A stretch of 41,472 bases of DNA, taken from contig NZ_JAOQNX010000040.1 in the NCBI RefSeq assembly GCF_025961575.1, forward strand, positions 1 to 41,472, written 5' to 3'. Below the pieces are notes generated by a model. It searched no databases and had not been told where the DNA came from. It saw only the letters and a list, made by a program, of their open reading frames with translations. Made by a program: the position numbers and the translations under genes. The stretch comes from Rhodoblastus acidophilus. Lineage in GTDB: Bacteria > Pseudomonadota > Alphaproteobacteria > Rhizobiales > Beijerinckiaceae. Positions 2,292-39,276 of this stretch are shown here, piece by piece. The number at the start of each line of letters is the position of its first letter. The stretch's first letter is position 1.

Positions 2292-4970
2292 ATGGCGACC
2301 GTGACCGTCACTTCAAGTGACATGACGAGCATAAATATCGACCCGTCTTTATACATACTGGATAATAATTATGGCCCATTTGCATTGTTTGATCGAACCG
2401 TAAGCGGCTATAATTATTATATAGCCGTCCTGGCAATATCTGCTGTAACTCTTCCGGGATCGCTTCAGTTGTACCTGGATCTTCTCGTTCATATTGATAT
2501 GAAAAAACTGACGGCGCCGGGTGTGGAATGGTCCGGGGATGTCGTGATTTCGTATGATGAAACGAATTACGCGAATTTGGCCGATGCGCTATGGAATGGC
2601 GACGACACGATCACACTCGGTGATGGCGTCAATTCCTCCACCTTCACCAAAATCTTCGGCGACAGCAATGTCGTGTCCGGCCAGCAGTGCGGCGCCGACA
2701 CGATCCGCGCCGCCAGCCTGACGTCGGCCGGCGCCGGCTTCCAACTGGTCGGCGACGCCTTCACCGCCAATGACGTGTGCAGCGGCGGCAACGACCTCAT
2801 TGACATGCGCAATCTCGCAGGCGCCTCCGGCGCGCCGACGATCGTCGGCGATTTCTATACCGCGAACGGCTCCGGCCGCTTTGGCGACGACATCATCTAT
2901 GGCTCAGCGTTCGGCGACATCATCTATGCCGACGCCGTCACTGTCGCCTCGCCTGACGATTGGATCGGCGGGCGCAATCTGGTTTATGCCGGCGCTGGAG
3001 ACGACACTGTTTATGGCGGGACCGGCGACGACAAGCTCAATGGGCAGGCTGGCGCCGACACGCTATTTGGCGGGGACGGCAATGACACGCTTACCGGCGG
3101 CGACGGGGCCGACACGCTCTATGGCGACGACGGCGACGACAAGCTCAATGGGCAGGCCGGCGCCGACACGCTGTTTGGCGGGGATGGCAATGACACGCTC
3201 ACCGGCGGGGACGGCAAGGATGTGCTCGACGGCGGCGACGGCGTCGATACGGCGGTCTATTCCGACAAGACCGCGCCGGTCGCCGTCGCGCTCAAGGGCG
3301 CCCAGGTCGCGACCGTGACGGTCGGCGGCGTCGCCGAGGATTCGATTCTCAACATTGAAAACATCGTCGGCGGCTCCGGCGCCGACACGCTCACCGGCGA
3401 CGCCTTCGCCAATACGCTTTCCGGCGGCGCTGGCGACGACATTTTGCGGGGCGGCCTCGGCGTCGACGTGCTCGACGGCGGCGCCGGCTCCGACACCGCG
3501 GATTACCGCGACAAGTCGGCTTCGGTGGCTGTGACCTTGATCGGTTATCTCTCGGCGGGGCAGCCCGTCGCGTCAGGAAATGTCGTCGTCACCGTCGGCG
3601 GCGTCGCCGAGGACACCCTTCGCAATATTGAAAACATTTTTGGCGGCGCGGGCGCCGACGCCCTTACCGGCGACGCGCTCGACAATCTGTTCCGCGGCGG
3701 CGGCGGCAATGATGCGCTCGACGGCGGCGCCGGCTCCGACACCGCCGACTACCGCGACAAGACCGCCGCGGTCTCCGTGGCGCTGAACGGGGCGACCCGC
3801 GTCGGCGTGCTGGTCAATGGCGTGCCGGAAGACACAATTGTCAATATCGAGACCGTTTATGGCGGTTCGGCCGCGGACACGCTGACCGGGGACGCGGCCA
3901 ACAACCTGTTCCGCGGCGGCGGCGGCGCGGATGTCCTCGACGGCGGCGCCGGTTCGGACACTGCGGATTACAGCGACAAGACCGCCGCCGTGGCCGCGAC
4001 GCTGAATGGCGCGACCCTCGCCACCGTGACCGTCGGCGGCGTCGCGGAGGATACGATCCGCAACATCGAGAACCTGATCGGCGGCGCCGGCGCCGATACG
4101 CTGGTCGGCGACGCCCTGGTGAACACGCTCCTCGGCGGCGCGGGCGCCGATCTTCTGAGGGGCGGAGGCGGCGCCGATTATCTGGATGGCGGCGCCGGCT
4201 CGGACTGGGCGGATTACCGCGACAAGTCGACGCCGGTGGCGGTGACGCTGAACGGGGCGATCCCGGCGCCGGTGACGGTCGGCGGCGCGACGGAAGACAG
4301 GATCGTCAATATCGAGAGAATTCTTGGCGGCTCGGGCGCGGACACGCTGACCGGCGACAGCCAGGACAATATTTTCCGCGGAGGCCCCGGAAAGGACATC
4401 CTCGACGGCGGCGCCGGCTCCGATACGGCGGATTATAGCGAAAAAGCGGGCGCCGTGGCCGTGACGCTGAACGGGGGGGCGGACGCCGTCGTGTCGGTCG
4501 GCGGCGCGGCCGAAGACACGATCCGCAATATCGAGAACGTGCTTGGCGGCGCCGGCGCGGATCGGCTGACCGGCGACAGCGGGGTCAACGTTCTCTCCGG
4601 CGGGGGCGGAAATGACATCCTCACCGGCCTGGGCGGCGCCGACGTCCTGACCGGCGGGGCCGGCGCGGACGCTTTCGTCTACACCTCGCTCATCGATCTC
4701 GGCGACACGATCACCGATTTCACCTCCGGCTCCGACCATATCGACGTGTCCGCCGCCGGGATCTTTGGACTGACTGCGGGCATTACGCCCAATCTGGTCC
4801 AGACCGCCAACCACGCGATCTGGACGCCCGGCGCGCTTCTTGAATACGAAACTGGAACGGGCGGGCTCTACTTCGACCTCAGCGGTGGGGCGGGGGTCGG
4901 CGTCATGCGTGTCGGCGTGCTGGCGGGCGCGCCCAAGCTCGTTGGGACCGACATCCATATCATCGCGTGA
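2292..4970 (+). CDS. RTX-type calcium-binding repeat protein, probably type I secreted
   Basis: An 892-aa protein dominated by GGxGxDxLxGGxGxD nonapeptides from about residue 230. After a block of simple repeats (including a near-identical 36-aa duplication) come six tandem modules of about 73-82 aa. Each consists of a DxADYRDK-type start, a VxVTLNGA beta strand, a (V/I)GGxxEDxIxNIEN segment and a GGxGADxLTGD / RGGGGADxLDGGAGSD RTX stretch. The end (AFVYTSLIDLGDTITDF, then SDHIDVS and a hydrophobic tail) matches the C-terminal serralysin-like and secretion-signal region of type I substrates. There is no N-terminal signal peptide and no protease motif (HExxH), so it is an adhesin/S-layer-like or unknown repeat protein. 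No ABC/HlyD/TolC genes are nearby. The first 100 or so codons are AT-richer than the rest. RBS-like AGGGGAG lies before the ATG. Confidence 0.85.
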   Translation: MATVTVTSSDMTSINIDPSLYILDNNYGPFALFDRTVSGYNYYIAVLAISAVTLPGSLQLYLDLLVHIDMKKLTAPGVEWSGDVVISYDETNYANLADALWNGDDTITLGDGVNSSTFTKIFGDSNVVSGQQCGADTIRAASLTSAGAGFQLVGDAFTANDVCSGGNDLIDMRNLAGASGAPTIVGDFYTANGSGRFGDDIIYGSAFGDIIYADAVTVASPDDWIGGRNLVYAGAGDDTVYGGTGDDKLNGQAGADTLFGGDGNDTLTGGDGADTLYGDDGDDKLNGQAGADTLFGGDGNDTLTGGDGKDVLDGGDGVDTAVYSDKTAPVAVALKGAQVATVTVGGVAEDSILNIENIVGGSGADTLTGDAFANTLSGGAGDDILRGGLGVDVLDGGAGSDTADYRDKSASVAVTLIGYLSAGQPVASGNVVVTVGGVAEDTLRNIENIFGGAGADALTGDALDNLFRGGGGNDALDGGAGSDTADYRDKTAAVSVALNGATRVGVLVNGVPEDTIVNIETVYGGSAADTLTGDAANNLFRGGGGADVLDGGAGSDTADYSDKTAAVAATLNGATLATVTVGGVAEDTIRNIENLIGGAGADTLVGDALVNTLLGGAGADLLRGGGGADYLDGGAGSDWADYRDKSTPVAVTLNGAIPAPVTVGGATEDRIVNIERILGGSGADTLTGDSQDNIFRGGPGKDILDGGAGSDTADYSEKAGAVAVTLNGGADAVVSVGGAAEDTIRNIENVLGGAGADRLTGDSGVNVLSGGGGNDILTGLGGADVLTGGAGADAFVYTSLIDLGDTITDFTSGSDHIDVSAAGIFGLTAGITPNLVQTANHAIWTPGALLEYETGTGGLYFDLSGGAGVGVMRVGVLAGAPKLVGTDIHIIA
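3024..3229 (+). repeat. 108-bp tandem DNA duplication in the RTX gene
   Basis: The segment beginning ggcgacgacaagctcaatgg at 3024 recurs at 3132, exactly 108 bp (36 codons) later, with only a few third-position changes through about 3220. The low divergence shows a recent in-frame duplication or conversion within the RTX repeats. Confidence 0.8.
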
Positions 4971-20122: not shown

Positions 20123-20197
20123 TGGGGCGTCGCCAAGTGGTAAGGCAGCGGATTTTGATTCCGCCATCCGTAGGTTCGAATCCTGCCGCCCCAGCCA
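20123..20197 (+). tRNA. tRNA-Gln (anticodon TTG)
   Basis: Acceptor stem tggggcg/cgcccca, D arm gcc..ggc, anticodon stem gcgga/tccgc with loop ttttgat (anticodon TTG, Gln), T arm gtagg-ttcgaat-cctgc, discriminator G and encoded CCA at 20195-20197. All four arms pair. It reads Gln CAA (and CAG by wobble). Confidence 0.96.
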
Positions 20198-20654
20198 TTT
20201 CTTTTATACCGGCAAATGCAAGGCGTTGTGGGTTCTCGACGAGACGTAACCAGACGCTTCACGCCCTCGGGCGTCAGCACGCCATTGGAGTCGGCGAACT
20301 GGGGCGCCGGCAATGGCGGCGGGCTCGCAGCTGCAGCCTGATTGCGGCCATATGGTGAGAACTTAATCCATCTCTCTGATTATTAACTGCTATTGGGTGT
20401 AAATCCGCTCGGTTTTCGCCTCCAACCCCGCAGGTTTTGCCTGACCGTTGCGCATTTTCCGGTCGGTTTTTCTGCTGCTTAAAAATGCGGCTGGACGACA
20501 AGGGCTCCTCCTTTAGTTTGAGCATCAAGCCGCGACGCAAAGGTTGCGGCGCTCCTGAACTGAGTGACGACTGAAGCATCCTCGGCGCGTAAGGCGTTGA
20601 CGGTGAAAGGTAAAACTTTGCCCATCGTCGTCGCGCCACACGAGGATGCGTTCC
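20198..20654. other. Gene-free leader region upstream of nifJ (457 bp)
   Basis: No convincing gene. The tract 20340-20520 is AT-richer. A weak hairpin gaccg/cggtc (20443-20447, 20460-20464) is followed by ggttttt and may terminate the tRNA transcript. A TTGACG at 20597-20602 has no good -10 partner, and I saw no clear FNR box or sigma-54 site. Confidence 0.4.
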
Positions 20655-23600
20655 ATGACCCGTTTTCCCGGCCTGCCCACAGTCATCAACGGCAATGGCG
20701 CCGTCGCTCACGTCATGAGCCACGTCTGCGGCGGCGTGATCGGCTATCCCATCACGCCCTCGACTGAAATCGCGGAAAATTTCGAAAATTTCCGCGCCAA
20801 TGGCGGCGTCAACGTCTGGGGCCAGCATCCATTCTTCTATGAGCCGGAGGGCGAGCATTCCGCACAGAGCGGCGCCATGGGCGCGGCGCTCACCGGCGGC
20901 AAATATGTCTCCAACGCCTCGTCAAGCCAGGGCGTGCTCTATGCGCTGGAGTCGCATTATGTGACTGTGGGAAAAAAGGTCGGCGGCTTCGTGCTGCATG
21001 TCGCTGCGCGCGTGGTGTCGCGCCATTCGCTCAACGTCATGGCGGGACATGACGATGTCTATGCGCTGCTGCTCGCCGGCTACACCATCCTCTTCGCCGC
21101 AAATCCGCAGGAAGCCGCCGATTTCGCCGCGCTATCCTACAGGATCGCCGCGAATGCGCTGATTCCCGTCGCCAACGCCATGGATGGTTTCGCCACCTCG
21201 CACATGATGAGCGAAGCGCTCCTGCCCGAACCGGAGCTTTTGCGAACCTTCATCGGCGATCCCGCCGCGCGCATTCCCGCGCCGACCGTCGCGCAGGAAA
21301 TGCTGTTCGGGGCCAAGGGCCGCGTCTGGCAGATCGGTCAATGGTTCGAGCGCCACGCCGGCGCCTTCGACACCGACAAGCTCGAAGCCGCGCGGAAACA
21401 GCTCGCCGCCAAGGCCGACGCCATAGAAACCGACACAGGCGGCGTCCTGCTCGACGATTTCGCCGGGCTATTGCCGCAGAAACTTGCCGCGCCCTTCCGC
21501 CGGCTCTGGCTGAACGCGTGGGAGAAAGGCACCCGCCAGCGCGTTCCCGCCCTTGTGGACGTCAACAATCCCGGCCTGACCGGCGGCGTGCAAAACCAGC
21601 CGGATTTCCAGAGCGGCTGCGCCGACCATCGCGCCCATTTCGCCGCCGACGTTCCCCGTTTCATCGACGAAGCTTTTGTCGAATACGCCGCTTTGACCGG
21701 ACGCGTCTATCGCCCGGTCATGGGTTTTGAAGCCGAGGACGCCGAGACCGTCCTGATTGGCCTGGGCTCGGTGACCGAGGACGCCGAAGCCGTCGCGGCG
21801 CATCTGCGCAAGCAGGGCCGCAAGGTCGGCGTGCTCGCGGTCAAACAGTTGCAGCCGTTCCCGGAGGCCGAAATTGTGGAGGCGCTCAAGGGCAAGCGCG
21901 CCGCCACCATTCTGGAGCGCTCCGAAAACATCGAACTCACCAGCCGGGTGATGCAGGCCCTGTGCAAGGCGCCGCGCGCCGCGCAGCCGCGCCTGACCAC
22001 TGCGATCTTCGGCCTTGGCGGCCACGACCTCCAGCCGCGCCATCTCGTCGCCGCCTATGACAATATGGACCGCGCCGAGCCCTCCGATTTCGTTTATCTC
22101 GGCTCGCAATTCATGGACGACGACGCCTCGCCGGCGCAGCAGAAGCTTGGCGCCGCCTATCCCGACAGTCTGCGCATGGGCCTGCCAGCCGGCGAAAATC
22201 CGCAGCTGCTTCCCGAGGGAGCGCTGCGCATCCGATTCCACTCCATCGGCGGCTACGGAACCATCGCCACTGGAAAGCTGGCGACCGACATCCTCGCCGG
22301 CGCGCTGAACCTGCATTCGAAATCGGCGCCGAAATACGGTTCGGAAAAGAGTGGCGCGCCGACCAATTTCTACATCACCCTCAGCCCCGAGCCGGTGAAG
22401 CTCACCAACGCCGAACTGGAGGACGTCGAGGTCGTGGTCTCGCCTGACCACATGGTGTTCGCCCATGCCGATCCCCTGCGCGGTCTGCGCGAGGGCGGCG
22501 CGTTCTTCCTGCAATCGCACCATTCGACCGAAGACGCCTGGCGCGCGCTTCCCGCTTCGGCGCGCGCTGAAATTCGGGCGAAAAACATCCGTTTCTTCGT
22601 GCTTGACGCCTTTGCGGTGGCCAAGCGTCATGCGCCCTCTCCAGAACTGGCGACGCGCATGATGGGCGTCGCCTTCATTGGCGCGCTGTGCGGCCGCATG
22701 GAGCGCATGGCGGCGGGCGCCGACGCCTCCGCGGTGCTGGAGCGCATCCGCAAGCAGATCGCCAAGAAATTCGGCTCCAAGGGCGAGGCTGTCGTCGCGG
22801 GCAATATGGCGGTGATTTCGGAAGGGCTGGAGGCGTGCTTCGCCGTGCCTTACCAGAAGTTCGGGGATAAAGCCGGAACGCCCGCCGCGCCCCATGCCGA
22901 CCTTTCCGAGAGATTGGGCGGCGCGGCGGCCAAGGTCGCCTCGCCGAGCGGCTTGTTCAGCGCCGAATATTTCAACGAAATCTTCGCCAAACCCATGCGC
23001 GACGGGCGGATCGGCGAAAGCGCGATCCTGCCGGGAACCGGCCTGTTCATGCCTCCGGCCTCCGCCGCCGCCAAGGACAAGGGCCTGTTTCGCCGCGAGG
23101 CGCCGGAATTCCTGGCCGACAAATGCACGGGATGTCTGGAGTGCACGCTTGTGTGCCCCGACGCCGCCATGCCCTGCACCGTGCATGAGATCGACGATCT
23201 CCTGTTCACGGCGGCGCGCCGCGCCGGCTTCGCTTCGAAAGGCGCGCTGGCGGACGCGCTTGTCGACGCCGCGGGCCGCATCCGCGACCGCCTCGCCGAA
23301 ACGCCGCGCGCTGCGCTGCACGCCTTGTTCGCCGAGCAGGGTGAAATGCTGGCGCTCTATGACGGCGCCCTGTCGGGGGCCTTGCAGAGTGTGGCGAAAC
23401 AGCTGGCGAGTTTCCCCGTGGCGAAGACCGGCTTCTTTTTCGACCAATATGAAAAGAAGGCGAAGGGCGAGGGCGGCCTGTTCTCGGTCGGCGTCGACCC
23501 CGCCAAATGTTCTGGCTGTCTCGAATGCGTGGCGGTCTGCGGCGCCAAGGCGCTGCGCGCGCAGGAGCAGGACGAGGCCGGGCTGGCGGCGTTGCGCGCG

Positions 23601-25187
23601 CGCTTCGCCTTCCTCGCCGACACCGCCAACACGCCCGCGCGCTTCAGCGAAAATCAGAGCATCGGCAACGCCAAGCGCCTGATGCTGGACCGCGACAATT
23701 ACTACGCCACATCGGGCGGCCATGGCGCCTGTCGCGGCTGCGGCGAGGTCACGGCCATCCGGCAGATCGCCTCCGCCGCCCATGCGCTGCATCGCAAGAG
23801 CGCCACCGCCGAAATCGCCGAGATCGAAGAGCTGAGCGACAAACTGGGAGTTTTGCTCGAAACTCTGCCTGCCGATGGCAATGGCGGTTCGGCGCGGCGC
23901 GCCCGCATCGAGGCGACGCTCACAACGCTTCAAAAGCGGCTGTTCGAACTCGAATGCGGCCCCACCGGCGCCGGACAGTCCGGCCTCGCCGTCGCCAACG
24001 CCACGGGCTGCTCCTCGGTCTATTGCTCGACCTTCCCGTACAATGCCTATCGCGACCCCTGGGTGAACAGCCTGTTTCAGGACACGCCCGCGCTTGCAAA
24101 GGGTCTTTTCGAGGGCATGGCGGCCGACATCGTCACAGTGGTGAAGGCGCGCCGTGTTGCGGAGCTGGAGCTTGCCGGCGCCTATGATGAAAACACGCAG
24201 GGACGGGCGCTCAAAACCCTGAACTGGGAGAATTTCACCGAGGCCGAACGCGCGCGCATTCCGACCATATTTTCGATGGGCGGCGACGGCGCCAATTACG
24301 ACATCGGCTTCGGCGCGCTGTCGAAACTTTTGACCACCAAGGCGCCGGTCAAAGTGGTGATCCTCAACACCGGCGGCTATTCCAATACTGGCGGTCAGGC
24401 GTCGTCGTCGAGCTATCTCGGGCAGGACGCCGATCTCGCGCGCATTGGCGCCGCTCATGATGGCAAGCAGGATGATCGCAAGGAGCTGAGCCTGATCGCG
24501 GCGATGCATCCCAAAGTGATGGTGGTGCAGACCAGTCCGTCGATCCCCGGCCATTTTCTGCGCAATGTCCTGACGGCGTTGGCCTATCAAGGCGGCCCGG
24601 TGGTGCTGGACATTTACACGCCATGCCAGGGCGAGAACGGCGTCGGCGACGATCTCTCGCACCGGCACGGCCGTCTCGCCGTGTCGAGCCGCATGGCTCC
24701 CGTGTTCACCCACGATCCCGAAGCGGGCGAGACGCTGAGCGCGCGTTTGTCGCTCACTGGCAATCCCGGGGTCGAGAGCGATTGGGACACCAGTGTTCTC
24801 TCCTGGACCGACGACAAGGGAGAACGCCATGAGATGGAGGTTCCGTTCACGCCGGCGGATTTCGCTTTGCGCGAAGGGCGGTTCAAGCGGCACTTCGGAC
24901 GTCCCTTGTCGGATGACGTCGAAGCCGCCGTTCCGGTCGCCGCCTTTATCGATCTGCCTGCGGAGGAAAGAGAAGGCGTCACGCCCTTCGTCTGGACGAT
25001 CCGCGCGGGACGGCTTGCGCGCTTGAGCGTCTCGCCGGCGCTGGTGCGTTTGGTCGAGGAGCGGCGGCGCAACTGGCGCCAGCTCAAGGAGCTGGCCGGA
25101 TATCCATTGCTCACCAAAGAGCAGGACGCGACGCCAGACACTGCGGCGGTCGCGCCGAAGGAGATGCACGCCTCGGCGCTGCACTGA
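20655..25187 (+). CDS. nifJ: Long pyruvate:ferredoxin/flavodoxin oxidoreductase-like protein
   Basis: 1510 aa, well above the 1170-1200 aa of ordinary single-chain NifJ. Order: pyrimidine-binding domain (CGGVIGYPITPSTEIAENF; substrate-side VAARVVSRHSLNVMAGHDDV), transketolase-C-like domain (IGLGSVTEDAEAVAAHL), gamma domain (RFHSIGGYGTIATGKLATDI), then two 4Fe-4S motifs, CTGCLECTLVCP near residue 823 and CSGCLECVAVC near 950, about 127 residues apart. The TPP domain follows, with CRGCGE near 1023, ATGCSSVYC, GDGANYDIGFGALS and YSNTGGQ. It should oxidise pyruvate (or another 2-oxoacid) with CoA to acetyl-CoA, CO2 and reduced ferredoxin. Start at ATG 20655 (GAGG 9 nt upstream) is preferred to ATG 20646. 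A monocistronic gene with a terminator; pyruvate specificity is inferred. Confidence 0.88.
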   Translation: MTRFPGLPTVINGNGAVAHVMSHVCGGVIGYPITPSTEIAENFENFRANGGVNVWGQHPFFYEPEGEHSAQSGAMGAALTGGKYVSNASSSQGVLYALESHYVTVGKKVGGFVLHVAARVVSRHSLNVMAGHDDVYALLLAGYTILFAANPQEAADFAALSYRIAANALIPVANAMDGFATSHMMSEALLPEPELLRTFIGDPAARIPAPTVAQEMLFGAKGRVWQIGQWFERHAGAFDTDKLEAARKQLAAKADAIETDTGGVLLDDFAGLLPQKLAAPFRRLWLNAWEKGTRQRVPALVDVNNPGLTGGVQNQPDFQSGCADHRAHFAADVPRFIDEAFVEYAALTGRVYRPVMGFEAEDAETVLIGLGSVTEDAEAVAAHLRKQGRKVGVLAVKQLQPFPEAEIVEALKGKRAATILERSENIELTSRVMQALCKAPRAAQPRLTTAIFGLGGHDLQPRHLVAAYDNMDRAEPSDFVYLGSQFMDDDASPAQQKLGAAYPDSLRMGLPAGENPQLLPEGALRIRFHSIGGYGTIATGKLATDILAGALNLHSKSAPKYGSEKSGAPTNFYITLSPEPVKLTNAELEDVEVVVSPDHMVFAHADPLRGLREGGAFFLQSHHSTEDAWRALPASARAEIRAKNIRFFVLDAFAVAKRHAPSPELATRMMGVAFIGALCGRMERMAAGADASAVLERIRKQIAKKFGSKGEAVVAGNMAVISEGLEACFAVPYQKFGDKAGTPAAPHADLSERLGGAAAKVASPSGLFSAEYFNEIFAKPMRDGRIGESAILPGTGLFMPPASAAAKDKGLFRREAPEFLADKCTGCLECTLVCPDAAMPCTVHEIDDLLFTAARRAGFASKGALADALVDAAGRIRDRLAETPRAALHALFAEQGEMLALYDGALSGALQSVAKQLASFPVAKTGFFFDQYEKKAKGEGGLFSVGVDPAKCSGCLECVAVCGAKALRAQEQDEAGLAALRARFAFLADTANTPARFSENQSIGNAKRLMLDRDNYYATSGGHGACRGCGEVTAIRQIASAAHALHRKSATAEIAEIEELSDKLGVLLETLPADGNGGSARRARIEATLTTLQKRLFELECGPTGAGQSGLAVANATGCSSVYCSTFPYNAYRDPWVNSLFQDTPALAKGLFEGMAADIVTVVKARRVAELELAGAYDENTQGRALKTLNWENFTEAERARIPTIFSMGGDGANYDIGFGALSKLLTTKAPVKVVILNTGGYSNTGGQASSSSYLGQDADLARIGAAHDGKQDDRKELSLIAAMHPKVMVVQTSPSIPGHFLRNVLTALAYQGGPVVLDIYTPCQGENGVGDDLSHRHGRLAVSSRMAPVFTHDPEAGETLSARLSLTGNPGVESDWDTSVLSWTDDKGERHEMEVPFTPADFALREGRFKRHFGRPLSDDVEAAVPVAAFIDLPAEEREGVTPFVWTIRAGRLARLSVSPALVRLVEERRRNWRQLKELAGYPLLTKEQDATPDTAAVAPKEMHASALH

Positions 25188-25490: not shown

Positions 25491-27782
<2,292 letters not shown>

Positions 27783-29936: not shown

Positions 29937-30800
29937 ATGAAATTCGTGAGCTTCCTGCGCCCGGATGGGACCGCGAGCCATGGTCTGGTCGAATCCGGCC
30001 GCATCCGCGATCTCGGCGCCGTCGATCCCGAGAGCCCGGACCTGCGCGCGCTTCTCGCGCATGGCGATGTCGGGCGCCTGGCCAAGTTGAGCGAAGCGGC
30101 GCCGGCTTTCGATCTCGCCGCCGTCGCCCTGTTGCCGGTTATCCCCAATCCCGGCAAGATCGTCTGCGTCGCGCTCAACTATCGCGGCCCCGGCGCGCCG
30201 CCGCCGCCCGAATATCCGGCGCTTTTTCTGCGCGCGGCTTCGTCGCAGACGGCCCATCTCGCGCCGCTGGTGAAACCACGCCTCTCCGACAAACTGGATT
30301 TCGAAGGCGAACTCGTGGTCGTCATCGGGCGCGGCGGTCGCCATATTTCCGAACAGCAAGCGCTCGGCCATGTCGCCGGCTATTCCTGCTACAATGACGC
30401 CTCCGTCCGTGACTGGCAGCGCCATTCGCACCAGTGGACGCCCGGAAAGAATTTCGATGCGACCGGCGCCTTTGGCCCCTGGCTGGTCACGCCGAATGAA
30501 ATGCCTCCCTTCCAGCACGCTTTTTTGCGCACGCGCCTGAACGGCGTCGAGATGCAGAAGGCGCCTCTGTCGTCGATGATCTTCAGCGTCGCCTGGCTGA
30601 TTTCTTACGTCTCGCGCTTCGCCACGCTCGAACCCGGCGACGTCATCGTCACCGGCACGCCGGAGGGCGTCGGCGACAAGCGTCAGCCGCCCGTCTATCT
30701 CCGCGACGGCGATGTGGTGGAGGTCGAAATCGACGGAATCGGCCGGTTGGAGAACCGCGTCGCAGCCGAACATGAGACGGAGGATTCCGGCCGTGCGTGA
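29937..30800 (+). CDS. Fumarylacetoacetate hydrolase-family protein
   Basis: 287 aa. N-terminal MKFVSFLRPDGTASHGLVES domain, then the FAH catalytic fold: PGKIVCVALNYRG, metal ligands in KLDFEGELVVVIGR (two Glu) and CYNDASVRDWQ (Asp), MPPF, DVIVTGTPEGVG and VEVEIDGIGRLENRV. Members hydrolyse, hydrate or decarboxylate 2-oxo acids and diketo-deoxy sugar acids in aromatic and sugar-acid breakdown. The precise substrate cannot be read. RBS GGAGGATGCA before ATG 29937. Its stop overlaps the GTG start of the regulator gene by 8 bp. Confidence 0.88.
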   Translation: MKFVSFLRPDGTASHGLVESGRIRDLGAVDPESPDLRALLAHGDVGRLAKLSEAAPAFDLAAVALLPVIPNPGKIVCVALNYRGPGAPPPPEYPALFLRAASSQTAHLAPLVKPRLSDKLDFEGELVVVIGRGGRHISEQQALGHVAGYSCYNDASVRDWQRHSHQWTPGKNFDATGAFGPWLVTPNEMPPFQHAFLRTRLNGVEMQKAPLSSMIFSVAWLISYVSRFATLEPGDVIVTGTPEGVGDKRQPPVYLRDGDVVEVEIDGIGRLENRVAAEHETEDSGRA

Positions 30801-32379
30801 GGAGGGCAAGTCCGGCGTCCAGGGCGCCAACCTGATCGCCAAGGCCTGCGACATTCTCGATCTCGTCGGCGAGGCGGCGGGGAGCGTCGCCATCCACGAT
30901 CTCGTGGAACGCACGGGTCTGCCGAAATCGACCGTCTATCGCATCGTCGCGGCGCTCGGCGCGCGCGGCCTGCTGCGCAACAACCAGCGCGGGCAAACCA
31001 TCGCGCTCGGCTTCCATTTTCTCGATCTCGCTCACAACGTCTGGACGATCCCCGACCTCGTCGGCGTCGCGTCGCTCGAACTGCGGCGCCTGCGCGACAT
31101 GACCGGCGAGACCGCCTATCTCGCGGCGCTGTCCGGCAGTTCCGCGGTGACGCTCGCGCGCTATGTCGGGGCGCATGAGAACAGTTCGATGTCGGCGCTC
31201 GGCAGCGTCAAGCCGCTGCATTGCACCAGCCAGGGCAAGGCGATTGTCGCGCATTTGCCGGCGCGCGAGGCGGATCATCTCGTCGCCGGGTTGCATTTCG
31301 ACATCCTGACTCCGCGCACCCTCAGGACGCGCGATCTGTTCAAGACGGAGCTGGAGCAGGTGCGCGCGCGCGGATTCGCCATCGACGATCAGGAAATCTT
31401 TCCGGGCGTGCGCTGCGTCGGCGCGCCCGTGTTCGACCGCGAGGGGGCGTGCGTCGGAGCCATCAGCGTGACCGGACCGGCCTATCGCATGACGCTCGAA
31501 CGCATTGACCAACTCGGCCCCGAACTCGTCGACGCCGCGGCGCGGATTCGCGCCAATCTCGCGCCCGCCCCAGCCAAGGCCGAGGCCGGCCCGGATATTC
31601 GCGCGCTGGGTCAACCGTCGTTCCACGGCGCCATGCCGTTCTGGTCGCGGGGCGAAGGCCGCCTGTATTGGGCGGATCGCCTGGCGCCCGCCGTCTACAC
31701 GCTGCGCAATGGCGAGGAGACGCAATTGCTGGCGCGGACGCCCGAGCCGATCGAGGCGCTGCTTCCGGCGCCCGAAGGCGGCGTCGATGTGCTCTGCGAC
31801 GGCGGCTGGCGGCGGTTGCTGGCCTGTGGGACCCAGATCGAGCTCGTCGCGCCTCCGCCCATAGGACTCGTCGCCGCCTGCATGGACAGGGCGGGCGAGC
31901 GATGGGCGGCGATCCGGGATCAGGGCCGCACGCAGGTCGGCCGTCTCGACGCCGGCGGCTTCCACGGCGAATGGACCGTCAACGCCGAGATCACCGCGCT
32001 TGCGGGCGGCCGGGATGGACTGGTCTATGGCGCGGATGGCGCGCGCGGCGTCGTTTACGAATTCCGCCAGCAAAGGGCGGCGCCGCATGTCCTCGCCCGA
32101 TTGCCGCGCGGCGCCGGCGAGCCCCGCGCCCTGGCCGTCGATCCCGATGGCGGGATCTGGGTCGGCCTGTGGGAAGGCTGGAGCGTCGCCAGGCTCGATG
32201 AGAGCGGCGAGATCGAACGCATTCTCGCGCTGCCGGCGCCGCGTCCCTCCGGCCTCGCCTTCGGCGGAGACAAAGGCGAACGACTCTTCGTGACGACGGC
32301 GCGCCTGGGACTCGCCCACGACATTCTCGCCAATGCGCCGGCCTCGGGCCGCCTTCACGTGTTCGACGCCTGGCGCTAG
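30793..32379 (+). CDS. IclR-family regulator fused to an SMP-30/gluconolactonase-like domain
   Basis: 528 aa. Residues 12-70 are the IclR winged helix (VAIHDLVERTGLPKSTVYRI). Residues 80-255 are the IclR effector domain (TGETAYLAALSGSSAVTLAR; PLHCTSQGKAIVAHLPARE; GVRCVGAPVFDREGACVGAI). Residues 270-528 form a beta-propeller like SMP-30/regucalcin: RLYWADRLAPAVYTLRNGE, AVDPDGGIWVGLWEGWSVAR, PSGLAFGGDKGERLFVTTAR. The usual divalent-metal ligands are missing (GAMPFW instead of GEGPxW; EPRAL instead of PDGL; no NGL), so lactonase activity is unlikely. It probably senses a lactone or sugar-acid metabolite. Start is GTG 30793 with GGAGG upstream; an ATG further up lies inside the FAH gene. Likely controls its own operon and maeB through the CGAAA/TTTCG sites. 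Confidence 0.9.
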   Translation: MREEGKSGVQGANLIAKACDILDLVGEAAGSVAIHDLVERTGLPKSTVYRIVAALGARGLLRNNQRGQTIALGFHFLDLAHNVWTIPDLVGVASLELRRLRDMTGETAYLAALSGSSAVTLARYVGAHENSSMSALGSVKPLHCTSQGKAIVAHLPAREADHLVAGLHFDILTPRTLRTRDLFKTELEQVRARGFAIDDQEIFPGVRCVGAPVFDREGACVGAISVTGPAYRMTLERIDQLGPELVDAAARIRANLAPAPAKAEAGPDIRALGQPSFHGAMPFWSRGEGRLYWADRLAPAVYTLRNGEETQLLARTPEPIEALLPAPEGGVDVLCDGGWRRLLACGTQIELVAPPPIGLVAACMDRAGERWAAIRDQGRTQVGRLDAGGFHGEWTVNAEITALAGGRDGLVYGADGARGVVYEFRQQRAAPHVLARLPRGAGEPRALAVDPDGGIWVGLWEGWSVARLDESGEIERILALPAPRPSGLAFGGDKGERLFVTTARLGLAHDILANAPASGRLHVFDAWR

Positions 32380-32748: not shown

Positions 32749-34515
32749 ATGACAATCAACCCCAAGATTTCCCTCGACGATCCCTGGGCGGGCTTCGCCG
32801 GGGATGACTGGCGCGCCTGCGTCGACGTGCGCGGGTTCATCCAGGCCAATTACCAGCCCTACCTCAAGAACGGAGCTTTCCTCGTCGGTCCGACCGCGCG
32901 CACCAAGGCGGTTTGGGACCAGTTGTCCGTCCTGCTGAAGCTGGAGCGCGAGAAGGGCGTGCTGGATGTGTCCGCCGACCGCGCCTCCTCCATCCTCGCG
33001 CATGGTCCCGGCTACATCGACCGCGACAAGGAGGTGATCGTCGGCCTCCAGACCGACGCGCCGCTGAAGCGCGCCATCATGCCCAATGGCGGATTGCGCA
33101 TGGTCGAAAACGGCCTCGCCGCCTTTGGTTATTCGCTCGACCCTTCCGTGAAGGAAATCTGGACCAAATACCGCAAGAGCCACAACCAGGGCATTTTCGA
33201 CACCTACACGCCCGAAGTCCTCGCCGCCCGCAAGGCGGGCATCGTCACAGGCCTGCCCGACGCCTATGGCCGCGGCCGCATCATCGGCGATTACAGGCGC
33301 GTCGCCCTCTATGGCGTGGACTTCCTGCGCAAGGAGCGCCAAAAGGTCTTTCACGAGCTCGACGGCGTCGATTTCACCGATGATGTGATGCGGCTGCGCG
33401 AAGAACTGTCCGAACAGTTTCGCGCCCTCGATGAACTCCGGGAGATGGCGGCGGGCTACGGCTTCGACATCTCGCGTCCCGCCGCCACCGCGCGCGAGGC
33501 CGTGCAATGGACCTATTTCGGTTATCTCGCCGCGGTGAAGGAGCAGAACGGCGCGGCCATGTCGCTGGGCCGCATCTCCACCTTCCTCGACATTTATTTC
33601 CAGCGCGACCTTGCCGCTGGCCTGATCGACGAGGAGCAGGCGCAGGAGATCGTGGACGATCTCGTGATCAAGCTGCGCATCATCCGCTTCCTCCGCACGC
33701 CGGAATACGACAGTCTGTTCTCCGGCGATCCCACCTGGGTCACGGAATCGATTGGCGGCATGGGTGAGGACGGCCGCACGCTGGTGACCAAGACCAGCTT
33801 CCGGTTCCTGAACACCCTGCACAATCTCGGTCCGGCGCCGGAGCCCAATCTGACCGTGCTCTGGTCCACCGAACTTCCTGAAGGTTTCAAGGATTTCTGC
33901 GCGCAAGTCTCGATCGAGACCTCGGCGATCCAATATGAGAACGACGACGTGATGCGCCCGCACTGGGGCGACGATTACGGCATCGCCTGCTGCGTCTCCG
34001 CCATGCGCATCGGCAAGCAGATGCAGTTCTTCGGCGCGCGCGCCAACCTTGCGAAGGCGCTGCTCTACGCCATCAACGGCGGCGTGGACGAGAAGACGGG
34101 CGCAAAGGTCGCGCCCGGCTTCGAGCCGATCACCTCGGATGTCCTCGCCTGGGACGAGGTGATGGCGAAACTCGACCCGATGATGGACTGGCTCGCCAAG
34201 ACCTATGTCACGGCGTTGAACTGCATCCATTACATGCACGACAAATACGCCTATGAGCGCATCGAGATGGCGCTGCACGACCGCGACATTCTCAGAACCA
34301 TGGCCTGCGGCATCGCTGGTCTTTCGGTGGCGGCCGACAGCCTGTCGGCGATCAAGCACGCCAAGGTGAGCGTGCTGCGCAACGAGGCGGGCCTCGCCGT
34401 CGACTACAGGATCGAGGGCGACTTTCCGGCCTATGGCAACAACGACGACCGCGCCGACGACCTCGCGGTGTGGTTGGCGGAAACCTTCATGAAGAAGGTC
34501 GCGGCGCAGCCCTAA
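32749..34515 (+). CDS. pflB: Pyruvate formate-lyase, N-terminal part, ending at an in-frame TAA
   Basis: 588 aa that follow E. coli PflB from its start to just before the glycyl-radical domain. Key features: [59 protein letters not shown], and the catalytic cysteine pair in [20 protein letters not shown] (Cys414-Cys415; Cys418-419 in E. coli). The frame stops at TAA 34513-34515 after FMKKVAAQP. The next codon in the same frame continues the family sequence ([10 protein letters not shown], cf. E. coli TYRDAIPTQS), so one stop codon separates the two halves with no frameshift. PFL cleaves pyruvate with CoA to acetyl-CoA and formate. Good RBS (AAGGAG) before ATG 32749. Either a nonsense mutation, a sequencing error, or a genuine two-chain enzyme. 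Confidence 0.9.
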
Positions 34516-34530
34516 TTCTACCGCAACGCC

Positions 34531-35004
34531 ATGCCGACCCAGTCGGTGCTGACCATCACCTCCAATGTGGTCTACGGCAAGAAGACCGGCGCCACGCCGG
34601 ACGGACGGCTGGCCGGCAAGCCGTTCGCGCCGGGCGCCAATCCGATGAACGGCCGCGACCGCAAGGGCTTTGTCGCGGCGGGCGCTTCGGTGGCGAAGAT
34701 TCCTTACGCCTGCGCGCTCGACGGGATTTCCTGGACGGCTTCGGCCACGCCCGACGCGCTGGGCCGTCTGCCGACCGAGCGCCAGAAAAACCTCGCCAAT
34801 TGCCTCGACGCCTTCGCCGAGGCCGGCGGCCACCACGTCAATGTCAATGTGTTCCACCGCGAGACCCTGCTGATGGCGATGGAGCATCCGGAAAACTATC
34901 CGCAGCTGACGGTGCGCGTCTCCGGCTATGCCGTGAACTTCGTCAAGCTCACCCGCGAGCAGCAGCTCGATGTGATCTCCCGCACCTTCCACGCTTCGCT
35001 GTGA
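34531..35004 (+). CDS. pflB: Pyruvate formate-lyase, C-terminal glycyl-radical part
   Basis: 157 aa, in the same frame as the upstream piece and starting at the first ATG, 15 nt after its TAA. It contains [40 protein letters not shown] and the radical site RVSGYAVNF, with Gly132 here matching E. coli Gly734. Sequence quality is undiminished: no further stop or frameshift. There is no Shine-Dalgarno before ATG 34531, so it would depend on reinitiation, readthrough or an error in the read. In size and content it resembles GrcA/YfiD, the stand-alone radical domain that repairs cleaved PFL in E. coli (established), which makes a split enzyme thinkable. Confidence 0.85.
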
Positions 35005-35060: not shown

Positions 35061-35864
35061 ATGTCACACATCGCACTCCGCACGCGGGCGGCGCCGGATT
35101 CGGCGCTGATCGCGAACTGGCCCGACCATGCCGATCCGGTCGGCTACCTTCACTCCGTCGAAACCGGCGCCGCCGCCGACGGGCCGGGCATGCGCTTCAT
35201 CTATTTCGTGGCCGGCTGTCCGCTGCGCTGCCTCTACTGCCACAACCCGGACACGTGGAAATTCGCCTCTGGCCGCGTCGTGACCCTCGATGACGCCATC
35301 GAGGAAATCCGCCCCTACGCGCATTTCCTGCGCAAGGCCGGCGGCGTCACCATTTCCGGCGGAGAACCGCTGACCCAGCGCAATTTCGTCGGTCGTCTGC
35401 TGCTGCGGTTGCGCGACGAGCTGGGTCTGCATACGGCTTTGGATACGCAAGGTTTCCTGGGCCACAAGGTGTCCGACGCCTGGCTCGACGCGGTCGATCT
35501 TGTGTTGCTCGACGTCAAGCACGCGGACCCCGGCGCGTACCGACTGATCACGAGCCGCGCGTTGCAGCCGACGCTCGACTTCGGCGACCGGCTCACGCGT
35601 CTGCGCAAGCCGATGTGGATCCGCTACGTGCTGGTCCCCGGCCTGACCGATGCGCCCGCCGACCTCGAAAAACTGGCGGACACGCTGCTGCCATGGGGCG
35701 AGGCGATCCAGCGCGTCGAGGTCCTCCCTTACCACCGCATGGGCGCGCCGAAATGGCTTGAGCTGGGTCGGTCCTATCCGCTCGGCGAAACACGGCCGCC
35801 GACCGCCGAAAACCTCGCCGCCGCCATCGACCTGCTGCGCCGCCGCGGCCTTCCCGCCTTCTGA
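35061..35864 (+). CDS. pflA: Pyruvate formate-lyase activating enzyme (radical SAM)
   Basis: 267 aa. The radical-SAM motif CPLRCLYC (Cys53, Cys57, Cys60) sits in FVAGCPLRCLYCHNPDTW. GGVTISGGEPLTQ, the ALDTQGF strand and VDLVLLDVKHADP follow as in PflA; RVEVLPYHRMGAPKW is the C-terminal PflA signature. It abstracts H from the PFL glycine using SAM and a 4Fe-4S cluster. About 20 residues longer at the N-terminus than E. coli PflA. ATG 35061 after GAGGGCGCAAC. Lies 56 bp behind the pfl C-terminal piece and 25 bp before ackA. Confidence 0.95.
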   Translation: MSHIALRTRAAPDSALIANWPDHADPVGYLHSVETGAAADGPGMRFIYFVAGCPLRCLYCHNPDTWKFASGRVVTLDDAIEEIRPYAHFLRKAGGVTISGGEPLTQRNFVGRLLLRLRDELGLHTALDTQGFLGHKVSDAWLDAVDLVLLDVKHADPGAYRLITSRALQPTLDFGDRLTRLRKPMWIRYVLVPGLTDAPADLEKLADTLLPWGEAIQRVEVLPYHRMGAPKWLELGRSYPLGETRPPTAENLAAAIDLLRRRGLPAF

Positions 35865-35889: not shown

Positions 35890-37134
35890 ATGTCCTCCTA
35901 CAAATCCCCCCTTCTCGTCCTCGTCGTCAATTGCGGCTCGTCCTCCGTCAAATATTCGCTGCTGCCGGTCGGCGGCGGCGCCCCGATCGCCTCGGGCGCC
36001 GCCGAATGTCTCGGGCTTCCCGAAGCGCGCCTTTCCATCAAGCTCAACGGCGTCAAGATCGTCGAGGATTTGAAGGGCGGCGCGCACGAGGCCGCGCTGT
36101 CGGCGATCTTCGCGCACCTCCAGACTGAAGGCTTCCTGCGCTATATCGCGGCGGTCGGGCATCGCGTCGTCCAGGGCGGCGAGCGCTTCAGCGAATCGGT
36201 GGTGGTGACGCCGGAGGTGCTGGCCGACCTCGAAAAACTGACGCCGCTGGCGCCGCTGCTCCATCCCGCCAACATGCTGGGCATTCGCCTTTGCATGAAG
36301 TCCTTCCCGATGGCGCCGCAAGTCGTCGTGTTCGACACGGCCTTCCACCAGACGCTGCCGCCGGCCGCCTACACCTATGCCATCCCGCGCGCGCTCCAGC
36401 GTGAGCACGGCCTGCGCCGCTACGGTTTCCATGGCACGTCGCATCGCTACGTTTCCGGCAAGGCCGCGCGCATGCTCGGCCTCGACCCCGACAACCATGG
36501 TCTCGTCATTGCGCATCTCGGCAATGGCAGTTCGGCCACCGCCGTGCTCAACGGGCGCAGCATCGACACCACCATGGGCCTGACGCCGCTCGAAGGCCTC
36601 GTCATGGGCACCCGCAGCGGCGACATCGATTTCGGCGCCGCCGCCTATATCGCCCGCGTCGCCGGTCTCGACATGGCGGGCGTGGACGACATGCTCAACA
36701 AGAAAAGCGGCCTGCTCGGCATTTCCGAACTCTCCAGCGATTGCCGCACGCTCGAAAACGCGGCGGACGAAGGCCACGAGGGCGCGCTGCTGGCGCTGGA
36801 TGTCTTCGTGCACCGTCTCGCGCGCTGCATCGGCGGCCTCGCCACCTCGCTGCCGCGCTTCGACGCGCTGGTGTTCACCGGCGGGATTGGCGAAAATTCC
36901 GGGCGCATCCGCGCCGCGACCCTGCGCCGCCTCGAGGTCTTTGGCTTCACCCTCGATGACGAAGCCAATCGCGAAATGGTCGGCGGGCGCGGCGGACGCA
37001 TCGACGCGGATTTCGGCCCGGCGGCGCTGGTCGTTCCCACCGACGAGGAATCCGTGATCGCGCGCGACGCCGCCGCCCTAGCGCATCTGTCCGATCTGGA
37101 CGTTTTCGCCGCCCAGCGCCGCGCCGCCGTCTAA
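35890..37134 (+). CDS. ackA: Acetate kinase
   Basis: 414 aa. ASKHA-fold signatures VVNCGSSSVKYSLL at the start and YGFHGTSHRYVSGKAARML in the middle, then IAHLGNGSSATAVLNGRSID, TPLEGLVMGTRSGDID and FTGGIGENS. Converts acetyl phosphate and ADP to acetate and ATP, the energy-yielding step after Pta. Start at ATG 35890 is set by the family N-terminus; the frame is open further upstream inside pflA. RBS weak. Twelve bp separate it from pta. Confidence 0.96.
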   Translation: MSSYKSPLLVLVVNCGSSSVKYSLLPVGGGAPIASGAAECLGLPEARLSIKLNGVKIVEDLKGGAHEAALSAIFAHLQTEGFLRYIAAVGHRVVQGGERFSESVVVTPEVLADLEKLTPLAPLLHPANMLGIRLCMKSFPMAPQVVVFDTAFHQTLPPAAYTYAIPRALQREHGLRRYGFHGTSHRYVSGKAARMLGLDPDNHGLVIAHLGNGSSATAVLNGRSIDTTMGLTPLEGLVMGTRSGDIDFGAAAYIARVAGLDMAGVDDMLNKKSGLLGISELSSDCRTLENAADEGHEGALLALDVFVHRLARCIGGLATSLPRFDALVFTGGIGENSGRIRAATLRRLEVFGFTLDDEANREMVGGRGGRIDADFGPAALVVPTDEESVIARDAAALAHLSDLDVFAAQRRAAV

Positions 37135-37146
37135 GGAGCTTTCGCC

Positions 37147-39276
37147 ATGAACGCCGCCTCGCGCCACCGCGCCTTTTACCTCGTTCCCCTGTCGCGGCAG
37201 GCGGGACTGACCAGCATGGCGCTCGGGCTTGCCCGCGCGCTTCGCCTCGCCGGACTGCGCGTCGGCTTCTCCAAGCCCATCGCCCAGCCCGAGCCGGGCG
37301 CCGAACAGGACCTGTCCGCGCATTTCGCCCGCGCCCTTTGCGGCGCCAAGACGCCAGACGCGATCGCGTTCGAGCGCGCCGCGACGCTGTTGCGCGCCGG
37401 CGAGCTTTCCGTGCTCATGGAGGACGTCGTCGCGCAGGTGGAGACGCAGCGCGCGGACTGCGACGTGATGATCGTCGAGGGGCTCATCCCCGACGCCGAC
37501 ATCCAGATCGCGACCCGGCTGAACATCGAGATCATCCGCACGCTCGGCGCCGACATCATTCCGGCGCTCTCGGGCCATGACATGCGGCGCGAGGACATCG
37601 TCGCCAAGGTCGCCACCGCCGTCGAGCAATATGGCGACGACGGCAAGCGCGCCATTGCCGGCGTCCTGGTCAACCATTGCGACGACGCGCTCGCGGCGGC
37701 GCTGGTGATCGGCGGTCCCTTGCGCTTCGCCGCCGACGCCGCTCCGGCGCCCATTCTCGCGGCCGCGCCCTTCGACGCCGAACTCGCGGCGCCGCGCGTG
37801 ATCGACGTGGCCGACAGCCTCGGCCTCGAAATCGTTCATCGCGGCGAGATCGAGACGCGGCGCGCGCAAACCCTGCTGGTCGCAGCGCGCCCCGCCGAAA
37901 AGCTGTTGAGCCATCTGACGCCGGGCGCGCTTGTGGTGACGCCCGCCGACCGGTCCGACGCGCTGCTGGCGTCGGCGCTGGCCGCCCAGCGCGGCATGCC
38001 GCTCGCCGGTTTCGTGCTGACCTGCGGCACGCGTCCGGCGCCGGAAATCAGGGCGATCCTGGACGCGCCGCCGCTCGACCGGCTGCCGATCCTGGCGACC
38101 TCCGAAGACACCTATTCCACGGCGTCGCGCCTGTCGAACCTGTCGCGGCACATCGGCCGCGACGATACCGAGCGCATGGAGCGCGTCGTGTCCTTCATCG
38201 CCGAAAGAATCGACACGCGCGCGCTGGCGCAGCGCATCGGCGCGCCATCCGACGATCTGATGCCGCCGCCCGTTTTCCGCCATCGCGTCGTCGAAGCGGC
38301 GCGGGCCGCCGCGCTGCGCATCGTGCTTCCCGAGGGCGACGAGCCGCGCACCCTGAAGGCGGCGGCGATCTGCGCCGAAAAGGGCGTCGCGCGCTGCGTG
38401 CTGCTGGGCGCGCCGGAAAAAATCCGCGCGGTGGCGGCGGCGCATGGCGTCGATCTGCCGGCGAATGTCGAAATCCTCGATCCCGAGGCGATCAGGCCGC
38501 GCTTTGTCGCGCCCATGGTCGAATTGCGCAAGAGCAAGGGACTGACGGCGCTCCAGGCCGAAATGAGCCTTGAGGACACCGTGGTGCTCGGCACGATGAT
38601 GCTGGCGCAAGGCGATGTCGACGGACTCGTCTCCGGCGCCGTCCACACCACCGCCAACACGGTTCGTCCGGCGCTGCAACTGATCAAGACCGCGCCCGGA
38701 TCGAAGATCGTGTCGAGCGTCTTCTTCATGCTGATGCCCGATCAGGTTTTCGTCTATGGCGACTGCGCCATCAATCCCGATCCGAGCGCGCAGGAATTGG
38801 CGGAGATCGCCATCCAGTCGGCGGATTCGGCGGCCGCCTTCGGCATCGAGCCGCGCGTCGCCATGATCTCCTACTCGACCGGCGCCTCCGGCACCGGCGA
38901 GGACGTCGAAAAGGTGCGGCGCGCGACGGAGCTGGTGCGGGAGCGCCGCCCCGATCTCGTCATCGACGGCCCCATCCAGTATGACGCGGCCTCGGTCGAA
39001 AGCGTCGGCCGCCAGAAGGCCCCCGACAGCCCGCTGGGCGGCCACGCCAATGTCTTCATCTTTCCCGACCTCAACACCGGCAACACCACCTACAAGGCGG
39101 TGCAGCGTTCGGCGAATGTGGTTTCGGTCGGGCCGATGCTGCAGGGCCTGCGCAAGCCGGTCAACGACCTCTCGCGCGGCGCGCTGGTGGACGACATCGT
39201 CTACACCATCGCCCTCACGGCGATCCAGGCGCAGGCGGGCAAGCGGGAAACGCGCCTCGCGGCCGCGGCGGAATAG
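37147..39276 (+). CDS. pta: Phosphate acetyltransferase (long, E. coli-type)
   Basis: 709 aa. N-terminal P-loop-like domain without a classical Walker A (YLVPLSRQAGLTSMALGLAR; FSKPIAQPEPGAEQD), middle DRTGG domain, and a C-terminal PTA domain from about residue 375: RAAALRIVLPEGDEPRTLKA, QGDVDGLVSGAVHTTANTVR, RVAMISYSTGASGTGEDVEK and FPDLNTGNTTYKAVQRSANV. Converts acetyl-CoA and phosphate to acetyl phosphate. The order pflB-pflA-ackA-pta on one strand with short gaps makes a complete pyruvate-to-acetate fermentation operon. Confidence 0.96.
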   Translation: MNAASRHRAFYLVPLSRQAGLTSMALGLARALRLAGLRVGFSKPIAQPEPGAEQDLSAHFARALCGAKTPDAIAFERAATLLRAGELSVLMEDVVAQVETQRADCDVMIVEGLIPDADIQIATRLNIEIIRTLGADIIPALSGHDMRREDIVAKVATAVEQYGDDGKRAIAGVLVNHCDDALAAALVIGGPLRFAADAAPAPILAAAPFDAELAAPRVIDVADSLGLEIVHRGEIETRRAQTLLVAARPAEKLLSHLTPGALVVTPADRSDALLASALAAQRGMPLAGFVLTCGTRPAPEIRAILDAPPLDRLPILATSEDTYSTASRLSNLSRHIGRDDTERMERVVSFIAERIDTRALAQRIGAPSDDLMPPPVFRHRVVEAARAAALRIVLPEGDEPRTLKAAAICAEKGVARCVLLGAPEKIRAVAAAHGVDLPANVEILDPEAIRPRFVAPMVELRKSKGLTALQAEMSLEDTVVLGTMMLAQGDVDGLVSGAVHTTANTVRPALQLIKTAPGSKIVSSVFFMLMPDQVFVYGDCAINPDPSAQELAEIAIQSADSAAAFGIEPRVAMISYSTGASGTGEDVEKVRRATELVRERRPDLVIDGPIQYDAASVESVGRQKAPDSPLGGHANVFIFPDLNTGNTTYKAVQRSANVVSVGPMLQGLRKPVNDLSRGALVDDIVYTIALTAIQAQAGKRETRLAAAAE

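Follow-up and report, generated by a model that had tools for sequence, protein, structure and literature searches.

A single in-frame TAA codon in the pyruvate formate-lyase gene of Rhodoblastus acidophilus, probably a recent nonsense mutation

The pflB gene described here lies in a window of 41,472 nucleotides (the whole stretch of Rhodoblastus acidophilus DNA that was analysed), and a close described counterpart is PflB (TIGR01255), represented by the pyruvate formate-lyase (PFL) of E. coli (2PFL/1H16). The two are alike in domain content, in the tandem cysteines, in the loop with the radical glycine and in the adjacent pflA gene; unlike E. coli PFL, the frame in the window contains a TAA codon, in a column that aligns to approximately E. 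coli residue 592. The segment beyond this TAA (the second piece) shares its C-terminal glycyl-radical segment with GrcA/YfiD (TIGR04365). According to the excerpted text of PMC8683613, the structured part of YfiD corresponds to no more than E. coli residues 693-759, and YfiD rescues PFL cut at Gly734; the second piece is approximately 95 residues longer than that structured part. It scored 87.4 bits with TIGR04365 (GrcA; cut-off 170) and 128.1 bits with GrcA3 (NF038360; cut-off 158), and so belonged to neither family.

PFL in two consecutive reading frames, as in the window, was also observed in two other genomes. In a small-genome relative at class level (G588; locus L161, 1238-3665), a large chain of 693 amino acids matched TIGR01255 over positions 2-663 with 1159.3 bits, over the cut-off, and a small chain of 80 amino acids, approximately 100 nt past the large chain, scored 161.8 bits with GrcA3 against the cut-off of 158. 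The Shine-Dalgarno sequence of this small gene was modest (-3.8 kcal/mol), a pflA-like gene was present after the small chain, and the large chain had an extra cysteine-rich tail ending in DCGCCEGTCK. The same pair, with the same cysteine-rich tail, was present in G1125 (locus L165), with 98% identity over the small chain and over large-chain residues 230-693, where the locus is cut; the pair is approximately 98% identical in the two genomes, which are placed in different genera. A sample of 57 genomes around G588, with G588 counted, contained 2 above the GrcA3 cut-off. The solved structure 38la has a PFL chain of 687 residues whose end coincides with that of the G588 large chain. Judged from sequence, both genomes carry a natural two-gene PFL, which putatively acts as one enzyme; the small chain bears the NCBIfam name GrcA3. 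These genes differ from the window in that they are cut at model position ~663, almost 90 residues after the cut in the window, and in that the pair has an intergenic gap, a start of its own and a presence in two genomes; the window differs in each of these respects, and its second piece lacks a separate start with a ribosome-binding site. Recent pseudogenes formed by a single nonsense mutation are a known kind of allele. The window resembles them in its one lesion, in the lack of other decay and in the patchy distribution of an accessory gene, and no specific difference from them was found.

The pflB frame and the genes that follow it are arranged as below.

32749..34515, + strand: pflB first piece, 588 amino acids from an ATG start, with most of the barrel, ending at the TAA
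34513..34515, + strand: in-frame TAA within pflB, in a column with sense residues in all 110 compared rows
34516..35004, + strand: remainder of pflB, comprising 162 codons and the final stop, with the glycyl-radical domain; first ATG at 34531
35061..35864, + strand: pflA, intact, PFL-activating radical SAM enzyme (TIGR02493, 275.3 bits, cut-off 231.75)
35914..37134, + strand: ackA family acetate/propionate kinase, intact (TIGR00016, over the NCBIfam cut-off; the mechanical ORF start is 35650, with the family match from approximately 35914)
37147..39276, + strand: pta, intact, phosphate acetyltransferase (over the NCBIfam cut-off)

A preliminary description had reported a single in-frame TAA in a frame otherwise open from 32749 to 35004, and this was borne out by the open reading frames and their translation. 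Its placement of the catalytic Cys414-Cys415 in the first piece and of the radical glycine in the second agreed with the motif positions, and pflA, ackA and pta were intact as it had stated, all scoring above their NCBIfam cut-offs. The tandem cysteines are encoded at 33988-33993 (CCVS at residue 414) and the radical glycine at 34924-34926 (RVSGYA, residue 723); both are therefore present in the pflB frame but not on one unbroken chain, as the TAA lies between them. TIGR01255 matched the first piece over positions 2-575 (917.6 bits) and the second over positions 584-744 (210.1 bits), and the whole scored as a single frame with one TAA inside reached 1150.3 bits against a cut-off of 994.2. Read from the ATG at 34531, in the same frame as the first piece and open to 35004, the second piece comprises 157 amino acids. 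GC content at third codon positions was 0.86 in the first piece, 0.88 in the second and 0.84 in pflA, and the overall GC content of the sequence analysed was 65.7%. This value and the PFL relatives would fit an alphaproteobacterium near Hyphomicrobiales.

The explanation that we consider probable is that this pflB is an ordinary formate C-acetyltransferase gene, an accessory gene of fermentation, and that one nonsense substitution recently inactivated it at a variable codon in a loop. The gene would belong to a patchily distributed pflB-pflA-ackA-pta fermentation cluster of an alphaproteobacterium, and a single substitution, if the base is real, would have turned the loop codon into TAA. Ribosomes would halt there and yield a 588-residue chain which, without the radical glycine and the final strands, could not be expected to work as PFL. 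In this group PFL is presumably an accessory enzyme, so that its loss would be tolerated.

Relatives of the gene were taken from named genomes, with the best 80 of 562 kept. Among these the nearest was from a Phyllobacteriaceae metagenome-assembled genome (MAG; L003, 84%), followed by two Aquitalea (L004 and L005) and a Hyphomicrobiales MAG (L006) at 81-82%; DNA identity to the two closest relatives was only about 81-83%. With the loci of the genome survey, 111 PFL loci were offered for comparison and 110 were unbroken across the site, L047 being dropped as it is cut by a contig end. These 110 rows represent 109 distinct genes (L002 and L084 are one gene of G004), and species may recur among them. 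The stop column was sense in every row (110/110), with varying residues (T 47, Y 28, H 14, A 9, V 6, S 2, F 2, M 2). TIGR01255 was found above its cut-off in 44 of 397 genomes at the level of the order, 12 of 385 in the class and 51 of 398 in the phylum, these samples overlapping. In this survey the genome of the window was the sole one with a single in-frame stop flanked by one frame, and no other genome had a stop at this place. The search for the same stop in related genomes, which had been proposed as a check, thus found no relative that shares the cut; intact orthologues are present in relatives, and the window has a single lesion, as expected of a recent nonsense pseudogene. Within the genus, PFL was present in 2 of 11 genomes, and the other copy was unbroken and divergent (60-66% identical). 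Among the 35 loci viewed, pflB, pflA, ackA and pta were close together as in the window in L003, L006 and L021, and L009 had the same gene order but with a gap of more than 4 kb. No report of this PFL split was found in the titles and abstract beginnings of the literature matches listed.

Some PFL genes in the survey were broken in other ways. In L162 (G1095), L163 (G854) and L164 (G367), PFL is split into two pieces that overlap or abut and whose coordinates place them in different frames, consistent with frameshifts; the frame-shifted copy of G1095 also has a TGA elsewhere, and the PFL pieces of G331 are on two contigs. None of the breaks in these four genomes is at the position of the stop in the window. 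An origin of the TAA as an extra codon was considered, as the loop is one residue longer than in E. coli PFL, and was rejected: 53 of the 110 rows also have the longer loop and carry a residue at the stop column, and a substitution is therefore simpler. Plasmid relatives of 20000-41472 were also sought; among 60 of 65 matching plasmid records, coverage of the query reached 80% in none, the longer matches were to pflB/pflA, malic enzyme or pta at approximately 72-77% identity, and six matches at 90-95% comprised only some 80 bases (20123-20207) at a tRNA-Gln gene.

The statement that neither half shows decay held at conserved columns. At near-invariant columns (at least 98% agreement among the other sequences), the window had no departures in 282 columns, 77 of which are in the second piece, and the other sequences had a mean of 1.33 (median 0). 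Departures of the window numbered 2 at 95% columns, where the other sequences had a mean of 2.91 and a median of 1, and 7 at 90% columns (mean 7.24, median 5 in the others), all in the first piece. Unique amino-acid changes in the second piece, counted for window to relative with four outgroups each, were similar: 7 to 4, 4 to 7, 7 to 6 and 8 to 5 for L003, and 4 to 6, 4 to 5, 5 to 5 and 5 to 6 for L006. One outgroup gave 11 to 4 for the window versus L026, and three of four leaned to the window versus L004 (10 to 7, 11 to 7, 13 to 8), the fourth giving 8 to 10. For the first piece, the window showed an excess with some outgroups (L003: 39 to 22, 41 to 23; L006: 43 to 25) and not with others (L003: 24 to 23, 29 to 34; L006: 29 to 30, 32 to 36, 34 to 33). 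The dN/dS ratio to L003 was approximately 0.14 in both pieces (0.108/0.747 in the first, 0.091/0.640 in the second). From the 647 nonsynonymous sites in near-invariant columns, the upper bound (95%) of neutral divergence since a loss was 0.46%; the bound from the second piece alone was 1.7%. The lack of departures at the 282 columns means that any loss is very recent; the decay test is equally compatible with a gene that was never lost.

The position of the stop in the fold was examined with AlphaFold2, by modelling the intact relative L003 from 68 sequences (pLDDT 80.1, pTM 0.85); an earlier model from 13 relatives was poor (pLDDT 53.8) and was set aside. The best match of the L003 model was 2PFL (TM 0.90, 64% identity). 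In this model the stop site is in a loop (587-591) between a helix (568-586) and a strand (596-601), and predicted strands 596-601 and 697-702 both lie beyond it. Strand 596-601 would be a barrel strand, and strand 697-702 probably corresponds to beta-10 in the barrel of ten strands given in the excerpted text of PMC8683613. The stop had been placed exactly between the barrel and the glycyl-radical domain; this was not upheld, as 22 of the 647 profile positions of the Pfam PFL-like domain and a predicted strand still follow it, and the Pfam Gly_radical match begins at residue 32 of the second piece. The crystallised 'large domain' construct of E. coli PFL, of 624 residues, likewise ends approximately 32 residues past the stop column. 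That the stop is in a linker agrees with the predicted loop, but such a position is not special: 39% of the residues in the L003 model are loop and a single change would turn 166 of 750 codons into a stop, so a loop position of the TAA needs no special cause.

The preliminary description had listed a two-chain PFL akin to GrcA/YfiD, stop readthrough, a fresh nonsense mutation and a base-calling error as alternatives. The last two fit the evidence; the two-chain PFL akin to GrcA/YfiD is not supported. No signals for restart or readthrough were found. The lack of other lesions is equally expected from a base error or from a working gene. A consensus base error in the draft assembly, the real pflB being intact, ranks next after a young null allele, but is rather unlikely. 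The lesion is a lone one of the substitution type, the 2256 nt contain neither a second stop nor a frameshift, there is no departure at the near-invariant columns, and the assembly is a draft of 80 contigs; against this, the site has no homopolymer run or obvious repeat, and the assembly has a completeness of 100% and a contamination of 0.45%. Substitution errors are also rare in finished consensus sequences.

A two-chain or readthrough enzyme is unlikely even when the two are taken jointly. In the two-chain case, with the cut inside the barrel, translation would restart at the ATG at 34531, and the 157-residue chain would complete the fold and bring in the radical glycine, like a permanent GrcA; we regard this as quite improbable. 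Both pieces are conserved, the cut is in a predicted loop, the natural two-gene PFL of G588 and G1125 exists elsewhere, and this ATG is just 15 nt beyond the TAA, so that termination-reinitiation is physically possible in principle. However, no Shine-Dalgarno sequence was found 5' of it (+1.9 kcal/mol, versus -3.8 kcal/mol and a gap of ~100 nt for the small gene of G588); pflB itself has one of -8.1 kcal/mol, 6 nt 5' of its ATG, and the values for pflA and pta were -6.1 and -7.1 kcal/mol. The cut also differs from that of GrcA and of the two-gene PFL, as both predicted strands beyond the stop would be on the second chain and the small chain of GrcA or of the natural split covers only the last 65-80 residues, and it is absent from all relatives examined. 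No GrcA, second PFL or other glycyl-radical protein was found in the genome, which gave one match each, as with PF01228, that of the window itself; there is therefore no GrcA to help the 588-residue chain. Readthrough yielding some full-length PFL is more improbable still. The entire downstream frame is conserved and the RNA across the stop (34486-34560) is somewhat more stably folded than shuffled sequences (z -1.98, 11 of 200 as good), but directly 3' of the stop the RNA shows no unusual structure (z -0.54). A programmed readthrough structure was considered and rejected. No UAA-reading or suppressor anticodon was found among 47 tRNA genes, all with ordinary sense anticodons, in a set that is incomplete in having no tRNA-Ile. 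Gaps in tRNA sets are usual where rRNA operons collapse in assembly. The base after the TAA is T, and the excerpted text of PMC6764699 treats TAAT as not leaky and TAA as the least leaky bacterial stop, with readthrough of ~1e-5 to 9e-4 in E. coli and Salmonella. Inside the coding sequence, the RNA 5' of the stop (34440-34515) had a z of -3.11 against 200 shuffles, as it folds more stably than these.

A stop in a loop between two conserved halves resembles a split enzyme, yet a very young null allele must look alike, and caution is needed in reading such loci. The comparison with G588 and G1125 provides criteria that separate the two: a start site of its own, an intergenic gap, the position of the cut and occurrence in more than one genome. 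If two chains did cooperate here, a glycyl-radical barrel built from two halves would be new.

Other genes in the window were also noted. A 1513-amino-acid pyruvate:ferredoxin oxidoreductase-like protein with POR, ferredoxin and TPP domains is encoded at 20646-25187 (+ strand); it is longer than the 1167-position TIGR02176 model and scored 372.3 bits, below the cut-off of 911.35. This protein is a possible second anaerobic route from pyruvate. An NADP-dependent malic enzyme-like protein with a C-terminal phosphotransacetylase-like part is encoded at 25491-27782 (- strand; 1023.4 bits, below the cut-off of 1178). At 30712-32379 (+ strand) there is a 555-amino-acid fusion of an IclR-type regulator with an SMP-30/gluconolactonase domain, and at 2292-4970 (+ strand) an 892-amino-acid protein with RTX-type calcium-binding nonapeptide repeats in 11 stretches.
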